Assembly (NCBI RefSeq): GCF_001544975.2
Contig: NZ_FCOG02000001.1
Location: 186,001 to 250,000, forward strand
DNA from: Caballeronia arationis
GTDB taxonomy: Bacteria > Pseudomonadota > Gammaproteobacteria > Burkholderiales > Burkholderiaceae
DNA length: 64,000 nucleotides
Direction of reading: 5' to 3'
A program made the position numbers and the translations under genes. Of this stretch, positions 3,070 through 58,112 are shown in pieces. Positions within the stretch are counted from its first letter, which is position 1. Every line of letters starts with the position of its first letter. The notes under the pieces were generated by a model. That model was not told where the DNA came from, did no database searches, and worked only from the letters and a program-made list of their open reading frames with translations.

Positions 3070-3145
3070 TGGTGCGCCCGGCTGGGATCGAACCAGCAAC
3101 CCCTGCCTTCGGAGGGCAGTACTCTATCCATTGAGCTACGGGCGC
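3070..3145 (-). tRNA. tRNA-Arg (anticodon CCG)
   Basis: The minus strand folds as a full cloverleaf of 76 nt. Acceptor GCGCCCG pairs with CGGGCGC, the D arm is AGCTCAATGGATAGAGT, the anticodon stem-loop is CTGCC-CTCCGAA-GGCAG with anticodon CCG, and the T arm is GCTGG-TTCGATC-CCAGC. The CCA end is encoded (TGG at 3070-3072 on the plus strand). No integrase gene lies beside it, so it does not seem to be in use as an attachment site. Confidence 0.97.
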
Positions 3146-36401: not shown

Positions 36402-36865
36402 GCGACATCGACGACTGGACCGGCGCCGCGCGACGCGTATATTTCGCGCTCCTCGGTGCCTGGAACCGCCAGGACGCGCCTGCGATGGCCGCGCTGTTCC
36501 GCGAGCGCGGCAGCATGGTGGGCTTCGACGGAAGCGCCATCGACGGACGCACGGCCATCGAGGCGCATCTCGCACCGATCTTCGTGCAGCATCCGACGCC
36601 GCGCTTCGTCGCGAAAGTGCGCGAGGTGCGGCGCATGGCAGGCGGGCACACGCTGATGTTGCGCGGCGTCGCGGGAATGTGGCCGCGCGGCGCGGACGAT
36701 TTGAACCCGGACCTGAACGCGGTGCAGACGATGGTGCTGTCGCTGTGCGACGGCGTGTACCGGATCGAGATGTTCCAGAACACACCGGCCGCGTTTCACG
36801 GGCGCCCAGAGGCGAGCGAACGGCTCAGCGCGGAGTTACGCGAGGCAGGACGGCCGCAAGCGTAG
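36398..36865 (+). CDS. SnoaL-like / DUF4440-type protein
   Basis: 155 residues in an alpha+beta-barrel arrangement: WNRQDAPAMAALFRERGSMVGFDGS, then IDGRTAIEAHLAPIF, and a C-terminal strand block MVLSLCDGVYRIEMFQNTPAAFHGRPE. Members of this group (often called SgcJ/EcaC family) are usually of unknown function. The start overlaps the stop of the LysE-type exporter (ATGA), so the two are translationally coupled. Confidence 0.8.
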   Translation: MSDIDDWTGAARRVYFALLGAWNRQDAPAMAALFRERGSMVGFDGSAIDGRTAIEAHLAPIFVQHPTPRFVAKVREVRRMAGGHTLMLRGVAGMWPRGADDLNPDLNAVQTMVLSLCDGVYRIEMFQNTPAAFHGRPEASERLSAELREAGRPQA

Positions 36866-45206: not shown

Positions 45207-47735
<2,529 letters not shown>

Positions 47736-47752
47736 TGGTGAGTGTAGCGAGA

Positions 47753-47793
47753 CCCATAACCTGAGAAAAACGGACTCATAACTTGAGAAATTT
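47753..47793 (+). repeat. Tandem imperfect direct repeats at the island's left edge
   Basis: CCCATAACCTGAGAAAAAC (47753-47771) and CTCATAACTTGAGAAATTT (47775-47793) share 14 of 19 bases, with the GAGAAA core in common. They start 17 bp after the gyrB stop. A similar 19-mer at 57642 in the same orientation marks the other side. Confidence 0.5.
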
Positions 47794-47819
47794 ATGGTTC
47801 TCGCCTTTGAATAGCCACT

Positions 47820-48203
47820 GACACGGCGCGCGTTCATCAGTTGCTTGCCCCGCAATTTGCCCGACTCATAGGCGTGCCGGAGTGCAGCCTGCACTTCAGC
47901 GTCGTTGTCGCCAGCGGCAACCATCGTGACGGCCGCATTCAAGGGGACAAGACCTTTTTCCACCGCGACCACGAGTCGCTCTTCCCCTTGACGCAGAAAT
48001 GTCAGGATGCCGTGAACATACGTCGACGTGAGGCCTTTTTTTTCGACTATGTCCTTCGGCGCATACCCCTGCTGCTGCAATTGCCCGCCCATGCCGTTCC
48101 CGTGGGTTGATGACGGCAATCTGGGAGACGGGACCATCCGGATTTCTCCGGGCTGTTGCCACGCGTTCACGCTACTCGTCTTGGACGAGTCGCGCTCAGC
48201 CAC
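47820..48203 (-). pseudogene. Decayed RepB/ParB-type partition protein gene
   Basis: The minus strand encodes EIRMVP then, after a one-base frame change near 48130, VSQIAVINPRER, the N-terminal signature of ParB/RepB proteins. The rest of the nuclease-like domain is missing. From about 48092 the earlier frame resumes with GYAPKDIVEKKGLTSTYVHGIL and GEERLVVAVEKGLVPLNAAV, ending at GKLRGKQLMNARRV; this resembles the RepB C-terminal domain of plasmid partition proteins. There is one frameshift and an internal deletion, and the 3' end is cut. It is evidence that the island once carried a plasmid- or ICE-like module. Confidence 0.75.
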
Positions 48204-48380
48204 GCCATTGTGGAAGTCCAGCGTATCAAAGCGATAACTCTCAAACTGGCCGGGGTTCTGGTCGGCGAGATGGATGCGAGGTTGCCCAAATTTCAAATGT
48301 GGCAACAGTTGGTAGTCTGGCATCGATGCATTCGTCTGGTCGAGCCGAACGGCACAGTGATGGCCGGCAGAAGGCGCGTA

Positions 48381-49292
48381 TCAAAACGCACCCTCGCTCA
48401 GCATGTACGTCTCAACTTCTGACCGATTCTTTAGAACAATCTGCTGCGCCTCCGGCTTGGCTTCGCCTTCGAGGTCTAGGCGCAGATGTCGCAGAGCGTA
48501 GAAGAGAAATGCCTGTCTGCAATGGAACTCGACTTGCCCGTCCTCCATTCCAAAATCAAGTTCAATGGCAAGTCTGTGCGACTTGCTCAGTTCGGGATGC
48601 GGAATCAATACCAAAGGCACGATGGTGTGCCATTTCACATCATCATCCGGACTTGCGGCGGCCGGCTCAAAGCCGTCAACCTGCAGCATGCGCGCAACGA
48701 CGAAGTCCAGAAACTGGTTGCGCACATGACAGTAGGCGCGTGCGTGCCAGCGGAAGCCATCGTGAGCAAGTGCATGCGGAGAAATCGTACGCGGGGAGTG
48801 CTGTGGTCGCGTCATCGATTGGTACAACACGCGTATCGCGCAGCGTTCGCGAATGGCTCGAAGAAGCGCGACTAAGACATCGACGCGGATGGTTCGACCT
48901 GGATGTGGCACTGTTGCGACCGGAGGTGCCCAAGTGATGAAGCTGCTTTCCTCTGAGTCCAGTCCGGAAGCGTGCGACAACAACTCGTTGAGATAGCGAC
49001 CAGAGTCGCTCGATGGGTAAAGTGGCTTAAAGTCGGTAGGAGCTATGTAGACCCGGGAGCTGCGGTCGTAATTTAAGTTAGTCGACGCCAGTTCCGTATA
49101 TTTTGCGATGTCTAGCGACGCTTGAGGCACCGAAATGCCAAAGAAGTCGGTGAGGTCACTGCGGTTGAGACGGCCATCCCACCGAAGTCGAAAGTCGATG
49201 AATTCCAGGCGGCGGTCCTGGCTCCACCGACCAGGGGCGCGGCTGCTGGATGACCCTGTTGGGTCCAATGTGGTGGGCAAGCTTTTGGGCAT
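48381..49292 (-). CDS. WYL-domain transcriptional regulator (BrxR/CapW type)
   Basis: 303 residues. The N-terminal winged helix (FIDFRLRWDGRLNRSDLTDFFGISVPQASLDIAKYTEL) is followed by a linker and a WYL domain with IRVLYQSM, PHALAHDGFRWHARAYC and FLDFVVARML, then a C-terminal extension. This matches regulators placed beside anti-phage and anti-plasmid systems, where they repress the operon until a nucleic-acid or nucleotide signal is sensed. It is divergent from jetA with a 145-bp AT-rich gap between. Its GC content is clearly lower than that of gyrB. Confidence 0.88.
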   Translation of the reverse strand: MPKSLPTTLDPTGSSSSRAPGRWSQDRRLEFIDFRLRWDGRLNRSDLTDFFGISVPQASLDIAKYTELASTNLNYDRSSRVYIAPTDFKPLYPSSDSGRYLNELLSHASGLDSEESSFITWAPPVATVPHPGRTIRVDVLVALLRAIRERCAIRVLYQSMTRPQHSPRTISPHALAHDGFRWHARAYCHVRNQFLDFVVARMLQVDGFEPAAASPDDDVKWHTIVPLVLIPHPELSKSHRLAIELDFGMEDGQVEFHCRQAFLFYALRHLRLDLEGEAKPEAQQIVLKNRSEVETYMLSEGAF

Positions 49293-49338
49293 CGTCGGAA
49301 TTTTCTCACGACTAGGAAAAATATGTGCGATTAGAAAC

Positions 49339-49367
49339 TAGACGCATATAAAAAGTAGTCGTATAGT
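49339..49367 (+). promoter_or_regulatory. Candidate jet operon promoter
   Basis: TAGACG (49339-49344), 17 bp and TATAGT (49362-49367) make a plausible sigma-70 promoter 30 bp before a short leader. An imperfect dyad ATATGTGCG...CGCATATA (49321-49350) overlaps the -35 and is a candidate site for the WYL regulator. Confidence 0.4.
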
Positions 49368-49396
49368 AACTCCAGCAAATTGCCTTGGAGGTCCAA

Positions 49397-49441
49397 GTGG
49401 ATAGCGTCACTGTTTACCGTTTCGTCGGGAGATGGGCGTGA
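49397..49441 (+). CDS. Short leader ORF coupled to jetA (putative)
   Basis: GTG at 49397 has GGAGG five nt upstream and encodes 14 residues (VDSVTVYRFVGRWA) before a TGA at 49439-49441. That stop overlaps the GTG at 49438, the best jetA start, in a GTGA arrangement. The spacing suits translation coupling. No peptide function is evident. Confidence 0.4.
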   Translation: MDSVTVYRFVGRWA

Positions 49442-50900
49442 AGACGCTTCGGGGCGCAGCAGCTTTGCGTAATCTGCGCGAGCAACCCCTTTGGCGCCTG
49501 TTGGCGGCCACGAAGGCACCCGTGATAATTGCCGTGCTCCAGTCGCTTTTCACGGGCACTGACAAAGCGTTACCAAGTTCGGTGCTTCATGAGCGCCTGA
49601 GTCGTGACATCGATTCGCTTCGCTCAACCGGCGAAGACCTCCCCCAGACACCCCAGGCGTACGTTTCTGAGTGGCTCAATCAAGGCTGGTTGACGCGTCG
49701 GTTTCCCATCGGGGCTCCAGAAGAAGAGTACGAATTGTCGGCCGAAGCGCTTACTTCGGTGCGCTTTGTTGCGGGACTCTTGACGCCAAGAACGACCGCC
49801 ACAGAAAGTCGGCTTTCAGTGGTCATGCACCAACTGTCGCGATTAGCTGAAGAGACCAATACCAACCCCGAAGCACGCTTGGCAGCGCTGCGCGCTGAAC
49901 GCGAGCGTATCGACAAGGCCATCGCTGATGTCGAGCGTGGCGGCGCGAAGATTCTGACACCTGACCGCGCCATCGAGAGCGCTCGCGAAGTCATCGCTCT
50001 GGCACAAGAGCTTGCGGCCGACTTTCGAAGCGTCCGCGACGAGTTCGAGCGATTGAACCGGGGGCTGCGGCAAAGCCTGATGGAGAACGAAGGCAGCCGT
50101 GGCGACGTGCTTGAACGGCTTTTTGCTGGCGTTGACCTTATCGGTGAAAGCGATGCTGGTCGCACTTTCAACGCGTTTGGGGTTTGCTGACAGACAGCGA
50201 GCAAGCCGCCACCCTGCGAGAGTCGTTGGACGAAGTGACGAGCCGGCCCTTTGCGCGACAGTTGGAATCGCACGAACGCAAATTCCTGCATACGCTGACG
50301 GGCGCTCTGCTGACCGAAGGACGAGGGGTGCACGACGTGTTGCAGCACTTTGCACGAAGCCTAAAGAGTTTCGTGCAGAGCCGCGAATTTCTTGAGCACC
50401 GGCGCCTGCACGGCCTATTGAAAGAAGCAACGCAGGCGGCGCTGACCGCCAAGAATGCAGTTCGCCCTAATGAGCAGATTGGTTTCGAACTCATGCAGTC
50501 CAGCGGTCGCATCCGGTCAGTAGCACAGTGGGTACTCTATGACCCCGCGCAACGAGTGACCGATTCGTCAATGCGGATTGCAGAACCCTCTGAGCTGGAC
50601 CTGGAAACCGTGAGCGAGCTCGTCCGGCAGTCGGAAATCGACTTTCGAACGCTCAAAGCGCACTTGCGGACCATTCTCGAACGCCAGTCGCAGGTCACCA
50701 TTGGTCAGATACTGACCGAGTTTCCAGCGGAACAAGGTCTTGGCAGCGTCGTTGGCTATGTGGCGTTGGGTGCCAAGCACGGCGAGGTCACGGACGGCAT
50801 CGAGCTCGTCACATGGGAAGGCGACGACGCGACCCGGCGTCGCGCCAAGGTTCCGACCATCTATTTCATGAAGGAGCGCTATCTTGAACTCGTTGACTGA
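49438..50900 (+). pseudogene. jetA: Wadjet JetA (DUF3375, MukF-like kleisin), frameshifted
   Basis: Two consecutive open frames together encode one DUF3375 protein of about 487 residues: 49438-50190 and 50184-50900. The first frame stops at 50188 after RTFNAFGVC. Adding one base in the T-run at 50176-50178 gives RTFNAFWGLLTDSEQ and joins the frames without loss. The N-terminal winged-helix part (NLREQPLWRLLAATKAPVI), the coiled middle and the C-terminal KVPTIYFMKERYLELVD are otherwise complete. JetA links the SMC heads of JetC. GTG 49438 has GGGAG six nt upstream; ATG 49432 is an alternative. If real, the shift should abolish the system unless there is -1 slippage, and the site is not a classic slippery heptamer. 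Confidence 0.85.
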
Positions 50901-51621
50901 CCTCACCGACGAAAGCGTCGCCGACGAGCCCGCGCCCGATACGACAGTTGCTGATACTGCGACGTTCCGAGGTGACACCGGTTCGCTTCCAATGGATACC
51001 AGGCGGGTGCTTGTGCAACTGCTTCTCGGCCCATCGGTGGACGCCCGGCGCCAGTCAAAGCTCTGGCCCGTGCTGCTTCGCGATGAAGCCATCGTCCGCT
51101 CTCGCATGCATGAGCTCTTTCTCGAGGTCATCATTGACCACGAACAGCGAGTCGCGTTCACGCGGCAGGTCGTATCCGAGGACATCGATGTCCCCATCCT
51201 TCTTCGCAAGGCATCGCTCACCTTCTTGGATACAGCGTTGCTGCTCTTCTTGCGACAGCGCTTGACCCAAGCCGATGCGCAGGGCGAACGAGCTGTCGTG
51301 TCGCGTGATGACATGCAAGAACACCTGTCGGTGTTCGAACGGGGGAGCAACCCCGACCACGCAAAATTTGAAAAGCAAATCGTCAACGCCGTCGACAAGG
51401 CCAAGAAGCTCAGCCTGCTGCAATTCGTTCGCGGCTCTGGTGAGCGGTACGAAGTTTCACCCACGCTCAAGCTCCTCTTTTCGGCCGAAGAAATTCAAGA
51501 CTTGACACGAACTTATGCCGCTCTGGCGTCCTCGCATTACGCGATAAACACGGACGAAGGCAACGCCGCTGAAGACGATGCATCGGCCAGCAGTGCCGAA
51601 AACGAGGAGGACTCGCTATGA
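50884..51621 (+). CDS. jetB: Wadjet JetB (DUF4194, MukE-like kite subunit)
   Basis: 245 residues. The TTG start at 50884 is supported by AAGGAG seven nt upstream, inside the end of jetA, so the two overlap by 17 nt. The body has RRVLVQLLLGPSVDARRQSKLWPVLLRDEAIVRSRMHELFLEVIIDH and later LSLLQFVRGSGERYEVSPTLKLLFSAEEI, the winged-helix features of the DUF4194 family. The C-terminus is acidic. JetB binds JetA in the SMC complex. Confidence 0.9.
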   Translation: MNSLTDLTDESVADEPAPDTTVADTATFRGDTGSLPMDTRRVLVQLLLGPSVDARRQSKLWPVLLRDEAIVRSRMHELFLEVIIDHEQRVAFTRQVVSEDIDVPILLRKASLTFLDTALLLFLRQRLTQADAQGERAVVSRDDMQEHLSVFERGSNPDHAKFEKQIVNAVDKAKKLSLLQFVRGSGERYEVSPTLKLLFSAEEIQDLTRTYAALASSHYAINTDEGNAAEDDASASSAENEEDSL

Positions 51622-54600
51622 ACATCGACCAGCCCGTGTTGTTGGACGGCAGCGGTGACCAGTTCCGCCTTACGCGCCTACAGACGTTCAACTGGGGAAC
51701 CTTCTCCAACGTCTTCGACTTCCCCATCCCCAAGGAGGGCTACCTCTTCGTGGGGCCGTCTGGTTCGGGGAAGTCGACGGTTCTGGACGCTCACGCGGCG
51801 CTGTTGACGCCACCGAAGTGGTTGGACTTCAACGTTGCCGCGCGTGAAGCAGAGCGGCATGGGCGCGACCGCAGCGCCATGACCTACCTCAGGGGTGCTT
51901 GGGCGCAGCAGACGGGAGACGGTGGCGAATACGTTTCACAATACCTTCGCAGCGGCACAACCTGGTCCGCCATTGCAGAGACCTACCTCGATGGACAAGG
52001 TCGGGTGGTCGTGCTCGCTCAAGTCCTATGGGTCAAGGGCAACACCACGGCGTCAAGCGACGCCAAGCGGCTGTACCTCACGCTCGAGCGTGAGTTCGAG
52101 ATTCAGGAGCTGGAGTTCTTCGCCAAGAACGAGTTCGACACCCGCCGCTTCAAACACGACCTGCTCGATGCGAAGGTGTATACCGAATTCAGCGCATATC
52201 AGGAACGCTTTCGTCGTATGCTGGACATCGACAACGAGCGCGCCCTCCGCCTTCTGCATAAGACGCAGTCGGCGAAGAATCTCGGCGACCTCAACGTGTT
52301 CCTGCGGGACTTCATGCTGGATGAGCCAGAGACGTTCAGCATCGCCATCAGCCTAATCAAGGAGTTCGGGGAGCTGAACGAGGCACACCAGGAGGTCGTA
52401 GCTGCCCGGAACCAAATCGAAATGCTCAAGCCGGCGCGGGAGGAGCACATGGAGCTCGAACGTGGCAACAGCGACCGCAACGGGCTGCAGGCAATCCAGA
52501 CCGCCATTGACCAGTATCGAGAGCACCGTCGCAAGGTCCTCGTGGACGAGCGGATTGCAGAGCTGGAGGTCGACAAGGAAGCATCGCGGCAGGAAGTCCA
52601 ACTTCTCTCGCAGATTGTCGATGACGAGTTCGTCAAGCTGACGGACCTACAACGTCAGAAGCTCAAAATGGGGGCTGATGTCTTGGTCCGTCTCGAAGAA
52701 AATATCAAGGCGGCGGAGGCAGATAAAATCGTCCGCATGAACAAGCGTGACCAGGCGGCAGCCGCGTGCAAAGTCATGGGATGGGCGATGCCTGACAGTG
52801 TGGTCTGGTTCGTCCACCGAGTCGAAGCTGCCAAGCAGCGTGTCCTCAGGGCTCACGACCTGACGAAGGAAGTAGAAGACCGTAAGGACCAGCTCAAGGC
52901 AGACCATCGGCAGGCCAGCGAAGAATTCACCACGACGGTGGCCGAAGTCAAAGCTCTGGAGCGTCAAAGGTCCAACCTTCCGGCACGGCTCGTGGACTTG
53001 CGTGAGCGCATGGCCCGTGACCTTTCGATACCCGAGGCGAAGCTGCCTTTCGCGGGCGAACTGGTGGAAGTGCGTTCTGATTCGACCGAATGGCGGGGCG
53101 CCATTGAGCGCGTCCTCGGCGGTTTCGCGCGCTCTATCCTCGTGGATGAGAAGCTCTACCCGGCGGTCTCGGCTTACCTGAACGAGCGCAACATTGGCGA
53201 GCGACTGGTGTACTTTCGGACTGTCCAGCAGACATCCGGACGCACGCCTGGTCCCAATTCTCTGGTGCGAAAGCTGAACTTCGCGCAGGGAAGCTTTGGT
53301 GAATGGGTGCGGGAGGAGCTAAAGCGCTCATACGAACTTGAGTGCACCGACACGCTGCAGGCGTTCCGCAATGCCCCTCGTGCCGTCACCCGTGAGGGCT
53401 TGGTCAAGCACAACACGGTGCGGCACGAGAAGAACGACCGCCACTCAGTCAACGACCGCAGCCAGTGGGTACTGGGCTTTGACAATAAGGACAAGCTCAC
53501 TCTGTACAGGAACAAGGCAGCGGAGCTTGGCGGACGCATCGCTGAACTGCGGATGGCGCTGGACAAGATTGGGGATGAAGAAGTCCTCCAGCAACAACAG
53601 CTCTTGCACTGCCAGAACCTGTCGAACCTGACGTGGAACGACGTCGACGTCGGCGCACTTCTGGCCCGCATCGACGACTTGACGACACGCCTCAACGCGG
53701 AGCGGGACGCCAGGCCGGACCTTGCCATCCTGGATGACCGCATTAAGACGCAGGAGGACATCCACTCCAAGGCCGTTGGCAAGAAGAACGAAGAGGATGT
53801 CAAAGGTCGCTCCATCAAGTCCGACATCGAGAAGCTAAATGTCAAGCTGGCCGAGCTGGCTCGTTTGTGGCCCGCCTCTGACAGGCCACCGGCGTTCGCC
53901 GCCCAAATCGAAGCTCGGTATGCGGCCACCGGCAAGGAGATTACTCTCGAGAACCTTGACCCGGTGAACGGGCAGGTGGACCGGGGCCTCAGCAACGAAT
54001 TGCGTGCGATTGAGAGTCGCTTGAGCGAGTTGCGCAATGCTATCGTCCAGCGATTCGTAGAGTTCAACCGCTTGTGGCCTTCGGTTGCTGGTGGTCTGGA
54101 CGCTACGCTGGCCAGCGCCGACGACTATCTGGCAAAGCTCAAGCGGCTGGAGGACGACAACCTTCCAGCGTTTGAAGACCGATTCTTTGGGTTGCTACGC
54201 GAGCAGAGCGACCAAAACCTGACTCTTTTGGCGACCAAGCTCGACGAGGAGCGCTCGGCAATTCGCTCGCGTATGGAACTGGTCAATGAGAGCCTGGAGA
54301 CTGCGCCGTTCAACCCGGGAACGCACCTCGTCATCGAAACGACCGACAAGTCGCTCGAGGATGTGCGGCTCTTCCGCGCGAGCTTGAGGGAGTCGCTCAG
54401 CCACTCGTTCTCGAACGACCGAGACCTGGCCGAAGAGCGCTTCAAGACGTTGGCTGCCTTAGTTAAGCGCCTCGCCAGCCAAGAAACTGCGGACAAGAAC
54501 TGGCGAAATCTGGTGCTCGACGTCAGGCAGCACGTGGAGTTTGTTGCTCGCGAGCTTGACGAGGGCGACGTCGAGGTGGAGGTCTACCGCAGTGGAGCAG

Positions 54601-54971
54601 GTAAGTCGGGCGGACAGCGCCAGAAGCTGGCTGCTACCTGCCTGGCGGCCGCCCTGCGCTATCAGCTTGGCGGCCAAGACCGTGCGCTTCCGAGCTACTC
54701 CACCGTGGTGCTCGACGAAGCTTTCGATAAAGCCGATGCAGAGTTCACTGCGATGGCGATGAACATCTTCAAGGCGTTTGGTTTCCAGATGATTGTGGCC
54801 ACCCCTCTGAAATCTGTGATGACACTGGAACCTTTCATCGGAGGAGCATGCTTCGTGCATATAAAGGACCGCAAGAAATCTGCCGTCATACCCATCGAGT
54901 ACGACAGCGAGTCCAATCGCTTGAAGTTGACTCAGGACGTACGCAATGCCGAAGAAACTGCTGTCTCCTGA
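51618..54971 (+). CDS. jetC: Wadjet JetC (MukB-like SMC ATPase)
   Basis: 1117 residues. An N-terminal head has Walker A GPSGSGKST (46-54). Long coiled-coil arms run from about 220 to 430 and 600 to 900 around a hinge-like centre (SIPEAKLPFAGELVEVRSDSTEW...). A C-terminal head has the signature KSGGQRQKLA at about 997 and Walker B with VVLDEAFDKAD near 1030-1040. It dimerises and uses ATP to extrude DNA loops. The ATG overlaps the jetB stop (ATGA) and is preceded by GAGGAGG. The reading frame is intact. Confidence 0.95.
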   Translation: MNIDQPVLLDGSGDQFRLTRLQTFNWGTFSNVFDFPIPKEGYLFVGPSGSGKSTVLDAHAALLTPPKWLDFNVAAREAERHGRDRSAMTYLRGAWAQQTGDGGEYVSQYLRSGTTWSAIAETYLDGQGRVVVLAQVLWVKGNTTASSDAKRLYLTLEREFEIQELEFFAKNEFDTRRFKHDLLDAKVYTEFSAYQERFRRMLDIDNERALRLLHKTQSAKNLGDLNVFLRDFMLDEPETFSIAISLIKEFGELNEAHQEVVAARNQIEMLKPAREEHMELERGNSDRNGLQAIQTAIDQYREHRRKVLVDERIAELEVDKEASRQEVQLLSQIVDDEFVKLTDLQRQKLKMGADVLVRLEENIKAAEADKIVRMNKRDQAAAACKVMGWAMPDSVVWFVHRVEAAKQRVLRAHDLTKEVEDRKDQLKADHRQASEEFTTTVAEVKALERQRSNLPARLVDLRERMARDLSIPEAKLPFAGELVEVRSDSTEWRGAIERVLGGFARSILVDEKLYPAVSAYLNERNIGERLVYFRTVQQTSGRTPGPNSLVRKLNFAQGSFGEWVREELKRSYELECTDTLQAFRNAPRAVTREGLVKHNTVRHEKNDRHSVNDRSQWVLGFDNKDKLTLYRNKAAELGGRIAELRMALDKIGDEEVLQQQQLLHCQNLSNLTWNDVDVGALLARIDDLTTRLNAERDARPDLAILDDRIKTQEDIHSKAVGKKNEEDVKGRSIKSDIEKLNVKLAELARLWPASDRPPAFAAQIEARYAATGKEITLENLDPVNGQVDRGLSNELRAIESRLSELRNAIVQRFVEFNRLWPSVAGGLDATLASADDYLAKLKRLEDDNLPAFEDRFFGLLREQSDQNLTLLATKLDEERSAIRSRMELVNESLETAPFNPGTHLVIETTDKSLEDVRLFRASLRESLSHSFSNDRDLAEERFKTLAALVKRLASQETADKNWRNLVLDVRQHVEFVARELDEGDVEVEVYRSGAGKSGGQRQKLAATCLAAALRYQLGGQDRALPSYSTVVLDEAFDKADAEFTAMAMNIFKAFGFQMIVATPLKSVMTLEPFIGGACFVHIKDRKKSAVIPIEYDSESNRLKLTQDVRNAEETAVS

Positions 54972-56199
54972 GTCGGCGCGCGACTTCCTTGTTCGTCGCT
55001 TCAATAACCAGCACGAGAACTGGCTTGCTGGGGAGGGAGCTTGGCCTCTGGTCGTCTCGCTGGGTGCTCCCACCGACAAGGACATCGCCGAGGATGCTTC
55101 GGCGGTCCGTACATGGGCTTTCGCTTGGCAGTCGAGAGGCGGTCCGGGTGAAGTTGTCTTTGAAGAGCGGCAATTCGCGCGGTTTGGCAGGCATCGCCTT
55201 CCTGTCAGCCTGAGCTTCGCAAATGCGACTGCCGTTGCGACTGCCGTGGGTCAGACTAGGCGCTGGGAAACGGCAACGGAGCGCTACCAGCAGATGCTGA
55301 ATCGCTGGCCAGTGCTCGCACAAAGCAAGGTCTTGGCATCGAAGTTCGATGTGCTAGCCGACTACACTCCGGAAGACTTCGAGCGGTTGGTAACGCTCTT
55401 GACGTGGCTGGAAGCGAATCCCGATTCCGGACTCTACCTCCGACAACTTCCTGTCGAAGGGCTCGACACGAAGTGGTTGGAGAAGCGAACGGGCCTAGTG
55501 GCGGGGCTCCTTCGGTCGTTGCGCGAAGTTACTGTCGACGACAGCGACTTCCATACCTTGTGCGGGCTGAGGAAGCCTGCGCACAGGGTCCGAATCCGAC
55601 TGCTATGCCCAGCCTTGCGCGAACGAGTCGGCGGCCTCTGTGACATCGAGGCACCTATAGGTGAACTTGCGACGCTGCCTATTGAGCCCAAGGCAGTGGT
55701 TATCGTCGAGAATCTTGAGACGGGCGTGGCACTTCCGGACGTTCCGGGTACCGTGGCAATCATGCGCCTTGGCAATGCGGTGAGTGCGTTGCATGTCCTG
55801 CGATGGTTGCGAGGGCCAGAGATTGTCTACTGGGGTGACATCGACACCCACGGTTTTGCAATTCTCGACCGCGCCCGCAGGGTCATGCCTCAGCTTCGGT
55901 CGGTACTTATGGACGAAGCAACACTGATTTCGCACCGCCCGCTGTGGGTGGAGGAATCTTCACTGTGTCCCAATGTCCCGTTTGATGAACTGACGGCTGA
56001 AGAGCGGCGCGTCTACGACAACCTACGCGCTGGTAGCTGGGGGCAGCGCGTCCGTCTTGAGCAAGAGCGTCTGTACTGGGCTACGTCGATAGAAACGCTA
56101 GTGCATGCGCTTGAGGGTCAGACTAACGTCGAGGAAGGCGTGGGGCTATCCGTTTCTCCGAACGGGCTTTGCCGCGCGGCGCAGTCAACCGATGGTTAG
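54946..56199 (+). CDS. jetD: Wadjet JetD (TOPRIM endonuclease, DUF3322/DUF2220)
   Basis: 417 residues. The N-terminal arm (DUF3322-like) leads to a DUF2220 C-terminus with a topoisomerase VI-like TOPRIM fold: catalytic Glu255 in VVIVENLETG and the DxD pair Asp298/Asp300 in YWGDIDTHGFAIL. JetD cuts small circular DNA that the JetABC motor has fully traversed. The gene overlaps the jetC end by 26 nt. Active-site residues are all present. Confidence 0.94.
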   Translation: MPKKLLSPESARDFLVRRFNNQHENWLAGEGAWPLVVSLGAPTDKDIAEDASAVRTWAFAWQSRGGPGEVVFEERQFARFGRHRLPVSLSFANATAVATAVGQTRRWETATERYQQMLNRWPVLAQSKVLASKFDVLADYTPEDFERLVTLLTWLEANPDSGLYLRQLPVEGLDTKWLEKRTGLVAGLLRSLREVTVDDSDFHTLCGLRKPAHRVRIRLLCPALRERVGGLCDIEAPIGELATLPIEPKAVVIVENLETGVALPDVPGTVAIMRLGNAVSALHVLRWLRGPEIVYWGDIDTHGFAILDRARRVMPQLRSVLMDEATLISHRPLWVEESSLCPNVPFDELTAEERRVYDNLRAGSWGQRVRLEQERLYWATSIETLVHALEGQTNVEEGVGLSVSPNGLCRAAQSTDG

Positions 56200-56349
56200 C
56201 GACGGCCCCAAGGCACAGGGTTGACGACGCCTGTGTAGCAAATCGGCCGCATGGGATAACGCGCACTCGACTCAACGCGGCCCGAAGAAAGTTCTAGGCT
56301 TCCCCTTCTACCGGAACTCCGATAATAGAGCGGTTCAAATTCGAAAACC

Positions 56350-56994
56350 ATGACAGCAATCGTGAAACGCGGCATCACTGAAGACTGCTGGAGCCTCATG
56401 AGCGAGGACCGAAAGCTCGGCTGGGAACTGTTCACGAGGTGCTTGGCCATAGTCGCAGCTTGGTTCGTGGTGAAGACGGGCGTTACGGCTATCGATTGTG
56501 TTGTCGCAGCCTTCGCAGGATTCACGCCGCTCTTTATTATCCGGAGTCAACGGTCTTTTCGGAAATACAGCAAGAACATCCGAAAGCGTCTCCTTGGGGA
56601 AATTGTCTTTCTTGGCGGAACCGGTGCGGCCGTCCTCGGGTTGCTCTACTTTGGCATCGCACTCCTTAGTAGCGTAGCTCAGACCTACGCGACCGATGTA
56701 GCACCCTTCCGTCATCGCGCTGACCCACTCATGGCTAACGTGATGCTTGTGCTACTGCTTTTCACCGTACCCCTCGCCGGCGTGAAGGCGTGGCGTGGCC
56801 TCAAGATGAGTGAGCTCGTCTTTGATTTACCAAAGCGCTCGCTGAAGCGCTTGGTCCTTCAACGGAAATACGTGGCTGACACCTTCGCCACTTTTGCCCA
56901 TTTTGAACTGAGCGCCCAAATCGTCGGCTTCGCGTACGCGTCGACATGTGCACGAATCATCAAGGTCTATTTGAGCGTACTTGTCCATCAATAG
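56350..56994 (+). CDS. Four-helix membrane protein downstream of Wadjet, unknown function
   Basis: 214 residues with likely membrane segments at about 31-45, 48-64, 84-108 and 127-147, basic loops between, and a C-terminal soluble part. I do not recognise a family. It lies 150 bp after jetD on the same strand. Its base composition matches the island rather than the housekeeping genes. It could be an accessory or an unrelated passenger. Confidence 0.6.
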   Translation: MTAIVKRGITEDCWSLMSEDRKLGWELFTRCLAIVAAWFVVKTGVTAIDCVVAAFAGFTPLFIIRSQRSFRKYSKNIRKRLLGEIVFLGGTGAAVLGLLYFGIALLSSVAQTYATDVAPFRHRADPLMANVMLVLLLFTVPLAGVKAWRGLKMSELVFDLPKRSLKRLVLQRKYVADTFATFAHFELSAQIVGFAYASTCARIIKVYLSVLVHQ

Positions 56995-57641
56995 CCCAAC
57001 CGCTGGCCATGGCACGATGACGGACGACGCGGCTCGCGTTGTCAATGCTCCACGAATCGACAACGGCCGTTCGCGAAGCGTTCTCGCGTCCAGGTTGAAA
57101 GCGTCCTTCTTTGATGAATTGCGTCGCGCATCTAACGAAATCGGGACTTTGACCCAATCAGAGCCGGGTGACAGCAGAGCTGTCCAGCGAGCGGACCCCG
57201 CCCGAGGCTAAGGTAGCGGCTGGTACGGACTGCTTTTACGAAATTCTGCCCGACGCCTGGTATGCTAGGTCTTGGCCGACTCTGTTCCGAGTTAAATATT
57301 GGCCCATTACTCCTCTCGTCGGTGTGTGCCGACTTCATCAGAGAATCATGGCCAAATGCGGCGGTGGCGGAAAAGGTTAAGACAGTCGCTGTCGTTAAGG
57401 AGCTGATTTTGCTGCAAGTCTCGTCGACGGGCGCGCTGGCACGCCTTCGAGGAGCAATGCCGCTGACGGGGAGCACGCCGCAGCGGCACGAATGCATTGC
57501 TACAGGCAAGACAAAGGCGGGTCGATTTCGTGGGTCCCCTCCGTGTCGAGTCGAGACCGGCGCACGTGACCGTCTGACCCGCCAGCGAACCGCTGGCCTG
57601 AGAAGGGATAGGAAGCGCTGTTGACGCACATCTAGCGGATT

Positions 57642-57660
57642 CCCATCACCCGAGAAAATC
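57642..57660 (+). repeat. Distal copy of the island-edge motif
   Basis: CCCATCACCCGAGAAAATC matches CCCATAACCTGAGAAAAAC at 47753-47771 at 16 of 19 bases in the same orientation, 9.9 kb apart. Confidence 0.4.
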
Positions 57661-57681
57661 GCTAGAATTTCCTCATTTCAA

Positions 57682-57704
57682 GCGCAGTTTTTTGAAAACT
57701 GCGC
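57682..57704. repeat. Perfect 10-bp inverted repeat
   Basis: GCGCAGTTTT (57682-57691) and AAAACTGCGC (57695-57704) flank a TTG loop. No T-run follows on the plus strand, so it is more likely an old element end or protein site than a terminator. Confidence 0.5.
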
Positions 57705-57934
57705 GCGTGCGCAACCGTCGTCCACTGATGGGACATGTTCGACCAGCCACTCGCTTGGCACCCGGTTCGAGGCGGCCGCGGGCGGAATTCTCATTTTATG
57801 CGTCCCGCTTTCTCGGTTTATGGGTGCGCATCTCCCGCAAGTCCTTTGCCAGCAGGGCACTCTTTCTCACCTTTTGTATCCATCTACAGTGAGTCGGCCG
57901 TCGTCTCCTGACCGCCGGTCATCGCAACTCAGCA

Positions 57935-57967
57935 AAGCCAACTGATCTCCGATCAGTTGGCTTTTTT
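57935..57967 (+). terminator. Strong intrinsic terminator
   Basis: A perfect 11-bp stem AGCCAACTGAT (57935-57945) / ATCAGTTGGCT (57951-57961) with loop CTCCG, followed by T to 57967. No plus-strand gene ends directly upstream; it may originally have served gyrB. Confidence 0.93.
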
Positions 57968-58112
57968 TGTGCGCGTTCGAAAAACAACGTCAAACCCGCG
58001 GCTCACGCTCCGATTCCCGCCTCAAATCGTCAAATAACGTAAAGAAAGTATCGGCCCGCGCCTCATCACGCCTTAGAGTTTCGACCGCCCGAACCCGTCC
58101 GAAACTCCCGTC

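Follow-up and report, generated by a model that had tools for sequence, protein, structure and literature searches.

Directly behind gyrB, a 64,000-nucleotide stretch of the genome of Caballeronia arationis (contig NZ_FCOG02000001.1; this whole stretch is called the window below) carries a type I Wadjet locus (JetABCD) arranged as one operon (Table 1). The host belongs to the genus Caballeronia, and its own genome is a 9.38-Mb draft in 629 contigs. Profile searches, suggested in a preliminary description of this DNA, recovered all four Wadjet families with both Pfam and the type I models of PADLOC, namely JetA (DUF3375), JetB (DUF4194), JetC (SMC/SbcC-like) and JetD (DUF3322 and JetD_C). The open reading frames (ORFs) overlap by 17 bp (jetA/jetB), 4 bp (jetB/jetC) and 26 bp (jetC/jetD), as expected from the tightly overlapping operon of that description, of which only the part concerning jetA, which is not one gene, did not stand. 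JetC aligns over nearly its whole length with the solved JetC (8as8), and JetD has retained its catalytic residues, E255, D298 and D300, which align with position 248 (the site altered in the E248A mutant chain) and the DxD motif of 8q72. Wadjet performs loop extrusion on small circular DNA, which is then cut by JetD, and an unbroken form of the unit in the window would be expected to have such an anti-plasmid activity.

Table 1 Features of the gyrB-adjacent element and its surroundings (positions are those of the window)
Feature	Position	Strand	Remarks
gyrB	45264..47735	+	intact host gene; 3′ end is the putative attachment site
left 5-bp target duplication GTGAG	47738..47742		exact match to 57889-57893
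left transposon end	47743..47790	+	TGTAG plus two transposase-site-like repeats
RepB/ParB-like gene relic (3′ part)	47819..48085	-	presumably fused to left end by internal deletion
relic of RepB 5′/serine recombinase 3′ region	48086..48395	-	78% DNA identity to G334 element 36507-36817
CapW/BrxR-family WYL regulator gene	48381..49292	-	divergent from jet operon; PDB profile matches
inverted repeat ACTAGACG...CGTATAGT	49337..49367		between WYL gene and jetA; partly conserved in 5-locus alignment
jetA	49432..50900	+	split by frameshift between ~50172 and 50184; DUF3375
jetB	50884..51621	+	DUF4194, MukE-like; Pfam and PADLOC
jetC	51618..54971	+	SMC ATPase; Pfam and PADLOC; PDB JetC 8as8, E 9.7e-89
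jetD	54946..56199	+	nuclease subunit; Pfam and PADLOC; PDB MksG 8b7f, E 4.6e-34, and JetD 8q72, E 1.3e-18
214-aa ORF	56350..56994	+	membrane-like by eye; follows jetD; also in G118 and G241
right transposon end segment	57381..57888	-	inner repeats 57787-57825; outer TGTAG motif ends at 57888
right 5-bp target duplication GTGAG	57889..57893		exact copy of left one
native gyrB terminator-like hairpin	57934..57968 (approx.)	+	same hairpin between gyrB and TPR gene in G051

The divergent WYL regulator noted earlier is a member of the CapW/BrxR family, with PDB matches to 7tb5 (E-value 4.1e-87), CapW (7tb6, 7.8e-80) and BrxR (7t8k, 2.7e-49). Like the solved CapW and BrxR proteins, which it resembles over nearly its full length, it appears to be a regulator of this type, and it differs from them in standing divergent from a Wadjet operon. 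The inverted repeat between its gene and jetA may be an operator. For the WYL and jet genes, the ratio of non-synonymous to synonymous substitution rates (dN/dS) was 0.11–0.22 in comparisons of the window with G118 and G241 (genomes are designated by G and a number), indicating that the Wadjet unit evolved under constraint.

The system is not intact, contrary to the preliminary description. In the assembly, a frameshift divides jetA into two ORFs (49432–50190 and 50184–50900), which match the PADLOC model PDLC00460 at positions 2–248 and 251–485 of 487; in G118, G241 and G020 the gene is uninterrupted, with one frame of 487–489 codons. Wadjet in this strain has therefore probably fallen silent, provided that the frameshift is not an error of sequencing. 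The less probable reading, yet one with an appreciable chance, is that the cell makes a functional JetA, the frameshift being such an error or being bypassed, and that Wadjet is active: the lesion is a lone one beside short runs of a single base in a draft of 629 contigs, and the remaining Wadjet genes are open with low dN/dS, but the sequence at the lesion, judged by eye and not computed, is unlike a standard slippery site.

The operon and its regulator lie within a transposon copy of 10,146 bp (47743–57888) that has kept both ends. The element begins with TGTAG and finishes with CTACA, its terminal repeats are paired and inverted (79% identity over 38 bp, E-value 5e-5), and it is flanked by an exact 5-bp direct repeat, the length of the target duplication made by Tn7. 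Its ends have the Tn7-like form, TGT...ACA with several transposase-site repeats, and a search of the 9.38-Mb draft for the paired end pattern, allowing up to three mismatches, returned two matches, one for each element end. Over its terminal 369 bp, the right end shares 78% identity with that of the G334 element. GC content is 58.2% in the element against 64.0% in the remaining window, and it ranged from 62.1 to 65.7% in 151 overlapping windows of the same length outside the element. The lower GC content and the matching edge repeats of the preliminary description are thus confirmed, the repeats being the inverted terminal repeats together with the direct repeat; of the island given there as 47736–57934, the insertion behind gyrB was upheld and the borders were corrected to those above.

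A paralogue of parE, gyrB is present in all 58 Caballeronia genomes, and its last 60 bp are strongly conserved across 56 relatives, whereas the DNA past the stop codon is not. An empty site is found in G051, whose gyrB is 98% identical: there, 213 bp separate gyrB from the TPR gene, and the match to the window runs up to the gyrB stop and resumes at 57897. This is the kind of relative that had been predicted, in which the terminator and then the TPR gene come directly after gyrB. From the comparison with G051, the terminator-like hairpin now located beyond the right end is read as host DNA that the insertion pushed 10.2 kb away from gyrB. The opposite pattern, the same genes at this site in all relatives, was not seen, as jet genes were found behind gyrB in 0 of 56 flanks from the 57 other members of the genus (G032 was left out; eight stretches were under 2.5 kb). 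With its ends, duplication and empty site, the element bears out the proposal that a mobile element delivered an anti-plasmid system; proximity to the origin, offered as the point of the site, gives way to the gyrB 3′ end as the address. Integration directed by a tRNA gene was discarded, the sole tRNA in the window sitting at 3070–3145.

The window element belongs to a family of Tn7-like transposons (TnsA-TnsB-TniB-TniQ) whose insertions lie about 7 nt past the gyrB stop, a fixed place beside a conserved gene. Five further Caballeronia genomes (G047, G030, G041, G028 and G025) have an element end 7 nt past the stop (8 in G025). Across the family Burkholderiaceae, the combination of gyrB end and transposon end was present in 42 of 398 genomes, the window included, from 9 of 25 genera, and a reversed-pattern control matched one genome; the left end lies 7 nt from the stop in 32 of the 42, 6 nt in seven, 8 nt in two and 9 nt in one. 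Together with nine more genomes and G247, the site behind gyrB is occupied in at least 52 of the 398. Order-wide spread was rejected after a scan in which 4 of 399 genomes (again including the window) matched, against 1 in the control, and Burkholderiaceae is where the pattern mainly occurs. CTACA followed by an exact copy of the left duplication was found in 11 of 36 elements, against 0.55 expected from swapped duplications (19 of 1250); these 11 comprise the window element (10.1 kb), the one in G396 (3.1 kb) and nine others of 27.8–76.9 kb. The G396 copy (L157) is a mini-element of 3117 bp behind gyrB with both ends and the exact 5-bp duplication, showing that small non-autonomous copies occur there. 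The spacer might instead be permissive and collect unrelated insertions without any targeting, and the interval between gyrB and the TPR gene, where the latter was located, does vary within the genus (0.2–8.4 kb), and G053 and G013 have unrelated genes there, one of them resembling a porin by eye. The constant distance, the uniform orientation and ends, and the linkage to a single TniQ clade described below make such a spacer scarcely credible.

The transposition genes of the family are seen in G028 and G041, where four genes encoding 256, 677, 328 and 615–623 aa lie about 27–34 kb into the element. Pfam identified the third as TniB and the fourth as TniQ. The second, TnsB, matches the PseTnsAB fusion by PDB profile (E-value 2e-11) and has invariant D285, D343 and E378, an arrangement corresponding to the DDE pattern with 35-residue spacing, while the first, a TnsA candidate, has invariant E50, D106, E120 and K122, a set that we take to fit TnsA. 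TniQ homologs with an E-value of 1e-40 or better were found in 22 of the 398 genomes, and for 19 of them the gene is 2–68 kb downstream of gyrB in the same orientation, in every case with an element end at the gyrB stop; in 18 at gyrB, tnsA-tnsB-tniB-tniQ is complete and in order. In a TniQ tree, a single branch with support of 100/100 separates the 18 gyrB rows from 28 other TniQ sequences of the genus, of which eight fill under half of the columns; five end branches, including that of G322, are long. The 28 derive from 46 genus matches, 30 of them with loci, two of which are gyrB rows. No right end was found directly behind tniQ; it is 6.8 kb farther in G028, and further right ends were located in longer stretches of DNA. 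These observations suggest that TniQ is the reader of gyrB.

Inside the window element, tblastn matches to tns genes were at chance level only, and transposase relics were accordingly ruled out there. No TniQ was detected at an E-value of 1e-5 in the strain's own draft genome, so this copy could presumably move only if helped in trans. What the element does hold next to its left end is the 3′ part of a RepB gene, followed by the RepB/recombinase junction region, the Wadjet unit and the right-end segment. The decayed partition gene of the preliminary description is thereby recognised: the fragment has a weak Pfam match (E-value 0.0058, below the family cut-off) and clear plasmid relatives (up to 62%), and its DNA (47819–48085) shares 79–83% identity with seven further gyrB elements and 70% with G322. 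Sister elements carry a 521-aa serine recombinase (Resolvase and Recombinase domains) and a RepB gene near the right end, as in the module at L246 10967–13434 (G334), and the same gene pair is present on a Methylibium plasmid. The junction between left end and RepB falls at TGA, letters common to the RepB side and to left ends of the G041/G323 type. On the simplest reading, an ancestor like G118 or G241 would have lost everything from the left end to RepB, including the tns genes.

The pairing of a partition gene with an anti-plasmid system, which had seemed odd, loses its strangeness here, the relatives of the fragment being RepB genes beside a serine recombinase inside sister transposons. 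An intact ParB/RepB with ParA and a centromere, as in plasmid partition, is not what was found, there being only a RepB fragment; ParA and a centromere were not searched for. A functional pair of partition and Wadjet was rejected. The recombinase/RepB module may be a second device for cargo exchange, its place in the window being occupied by the Wadjet unit.

That this module, and not the Tns proteins, placed the Wadjet unit behind gyrB as an integrative element is an explanation we regard as very improbable. It draws on the presence of the recombinase and RepB genes in several sister elements, on the relic in the window and on the plasmid-borne pair. It does not account for whole elements that are flanked by a 5-bp duplication and bounded by Tns-type ends, nor for such elements as those of G396, G118 and G028, which occupy the same place and yielded no RepB ORF; moreover, it is TniQ that tracks gyrB, in a linkage compared for TniQ and not for the recombinase.

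We therefore hold it to be highly probable that a Tn7-like, gyrB-homing transposon brought Wadjet to this site and that the copy later lost tnsABC-tniQ. In this mechanism, TniQ of the clade would read the conserved gyrB 3′ end and direct insertion to about 7 nt past the stop, TnsA and TnsB would cut and join, and TniB/TnsC would connect them to TniQ, resulting in 5-bp duplications and leaving gyrB intact. The CapW-regulated type I Wadjet unit would have come to sit where sister elements have the serine recombinase of the recombinase/RepB module, and an internal deletion that took out tnsABC-tniQ would then have brought the left end against the RepB relic; the element that is left is 10.1 kb long, retains both ends and is non-autonomous. 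We infer the cut-and-paste chemistry and the order of these events from sequence comparison. Several observations weigh against this account. Of the 42 genomes with the gyrB pattern, 31 have no TniQ homolog at 1e-40, and three of the 22 TniQ homologs are not beside gyrB, namely that of G273, whose draft has the gyrB left end but carries the homolog on a separate contig, and the fragments in G177 and G040. TnsA has no Pfam match at 1e-4 and no meaningful PDB match and is named from position, length and motif, and TnsB likewise lacks a Pfam match at 1e-4, although it has the PseTnsAB profile match. No exact duplication was recovered for 25 of the 36 elements: G197, G105 and G241 have the right-end motif without it, and in the others no right end was recognised in the DNA read, beyond which it perhaps lies in many of them. 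Finally, the jetA frameshift is possibly an assembly error.

The sister elements carry a varied cargo, as PADLOC showed for a selection of 26 large cargo proteins, four of which were unmatched at an E-value of 1e-20. We observed Druantia III and a type IV restriction enzyme in G028, BREX in G041 and G323, type I restriction in G133, G087, G161, G293 and G197, together with a Zorya ZorD-like protein in G161, SspC/SspH in G368, SspC in G047, and Avs2 and Dsr2 in G118. The element of G334 carries a second, different subfamily of type I Wadjet (L246 1037–6842), with JetA of PDLC00462 (DUF5716) and JetC of PDLC00507; just upstream is a WYL-like ORF with 29% identity to the WYL protein of the window. 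No CRISPR protein was present among the 26. The Wadjet unit of the window also occurs in G118 (91.6% over 8878 bp) and G241 (94.2% over 9031 bp), on full-size gyrB elements having tns genes. JetC at an E-value of 1e-300 (at least 49% identity) was found in 10 of the 398 genomes, in six of which the WYL gene is divergent from the Wadjet operon. Four of the ten loci, those of the window, G118, G241 and G247, are on gyrB elements, Wadjet being reversed and adjoining the left end in G247; around the other six, no gyrB or tns gene was found within the 20–30 kb read around JetC. From these assignments, the defence cargo differs between copies and appears to be exchangeable within the clade.

The left ends frequently resemble intrinsic terminators. 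Among 49 left ends, 33 contain a stem of 8 bp or more, compared with 455 of 2450 shuffled sequences in which only base composition was preserved; 31 of the 33 stems begin at positions 20–40, around the second repeat. In 17 of the 49, such a stem is followed by at least four T in six positions, against 44 of 2450. The window's own left end (47743–47837) has no such stem. We suggest that the left-end palindrome may replace the displaced gyrB terminator. We are evenly divided on a broader proposal, in which these elements would form an undescribed Tn7-like clade whose 615-aa TniQ directly reads the gyrB 3′ end, in the way that parE is read in another clade, and whose left end often folds into an intrinsic terminator that takes the place of the displaced one and makes landing harmless. 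Such elements would move a rotating defence cargo through Burkholderiaceae, Wadjet being represented in it by two subtypes or more.

In the order TnsA-TnsB-TnsC/TniB-TniQ, the insertion just outside a conserved gene, the 5-bp duplication and the defence cargo, the gyrB family is like Tn7-like transposons whose TniQ/TnsD reads the end of a host gene. Wadjet is already known as cargo of such transposons, JetD being counted in 34 of them in the main text of PMC8649781, and the window presents the same pairing of system and carrier. Sites named in PMC10293859 and PMC11406308 include glmS, tRNA genes, comM, yhiN and parE, the last being the TniQ-targeted site of Tn7017, a type I-F3 CRISPR-associated transposon (CAST; PMC11406308). 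The gyrB family differs from these in its attachment site, gyrB in place of glmS or the parE of Tn7017, and from the Tn7017 CAST in the lack of a CRISPR protein among the scanned cargo. The word gyrB does not occur in the main texts, as distinct from the supplements, of PMC8649781, PMC10293859 and PMC11406308, nor does gyrase in those of PMC8649781 and PMC10293859. Among the matches listed by a literature search on gyrB, which covered titles and the start of abstracts and had supplements and most subscription papers outside its scope, none treats it as an attachment site; in the text available from PMC12452197, gyrB is mentioned in the context of phylogeny. Wadjet is named among the systems co-located with CapW/BrxR WYL regulators in PMC9122601. 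Compared with type I Wadjet (JetABCD/MksBEFG/EptABCD), the locus in the window shares the four protein families and the JetD catalytic residues and differs in its frameshifted jetA, its location on a deleted Tn7-like element and the CapW-type regulator alongside.

The DNA behind gyrB in Burkholderiaceae is thus a docking site, and reading it would be an inexpensive means of discovering defence systems whose borders are exactly defined. As a Tn7-like address, gyrB would be the second topoisomerase gene, beside parE, and its TniQ clade is a potential source of rules for gene-end recognition and perhaps of a tool for site-specific insertion. There is also a conflict in an anti-plasmid system being carried by transposons of a kind presumed to spread by way of plasmids.

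The 214-aa ORF behind jetD matched no Pfam family. It was considered as a Wadjet component and dropped, being unmatched in the stretches from G130, G081, G247, G228, G020, G113 and G188. A relative with 62% identity is located on a conjugative plasmid of Burkholderia plantarii, and dN/dS of the ORF in the window was 0.19 against G118 and 1.4 against G241, the latter value resting on very few changes.

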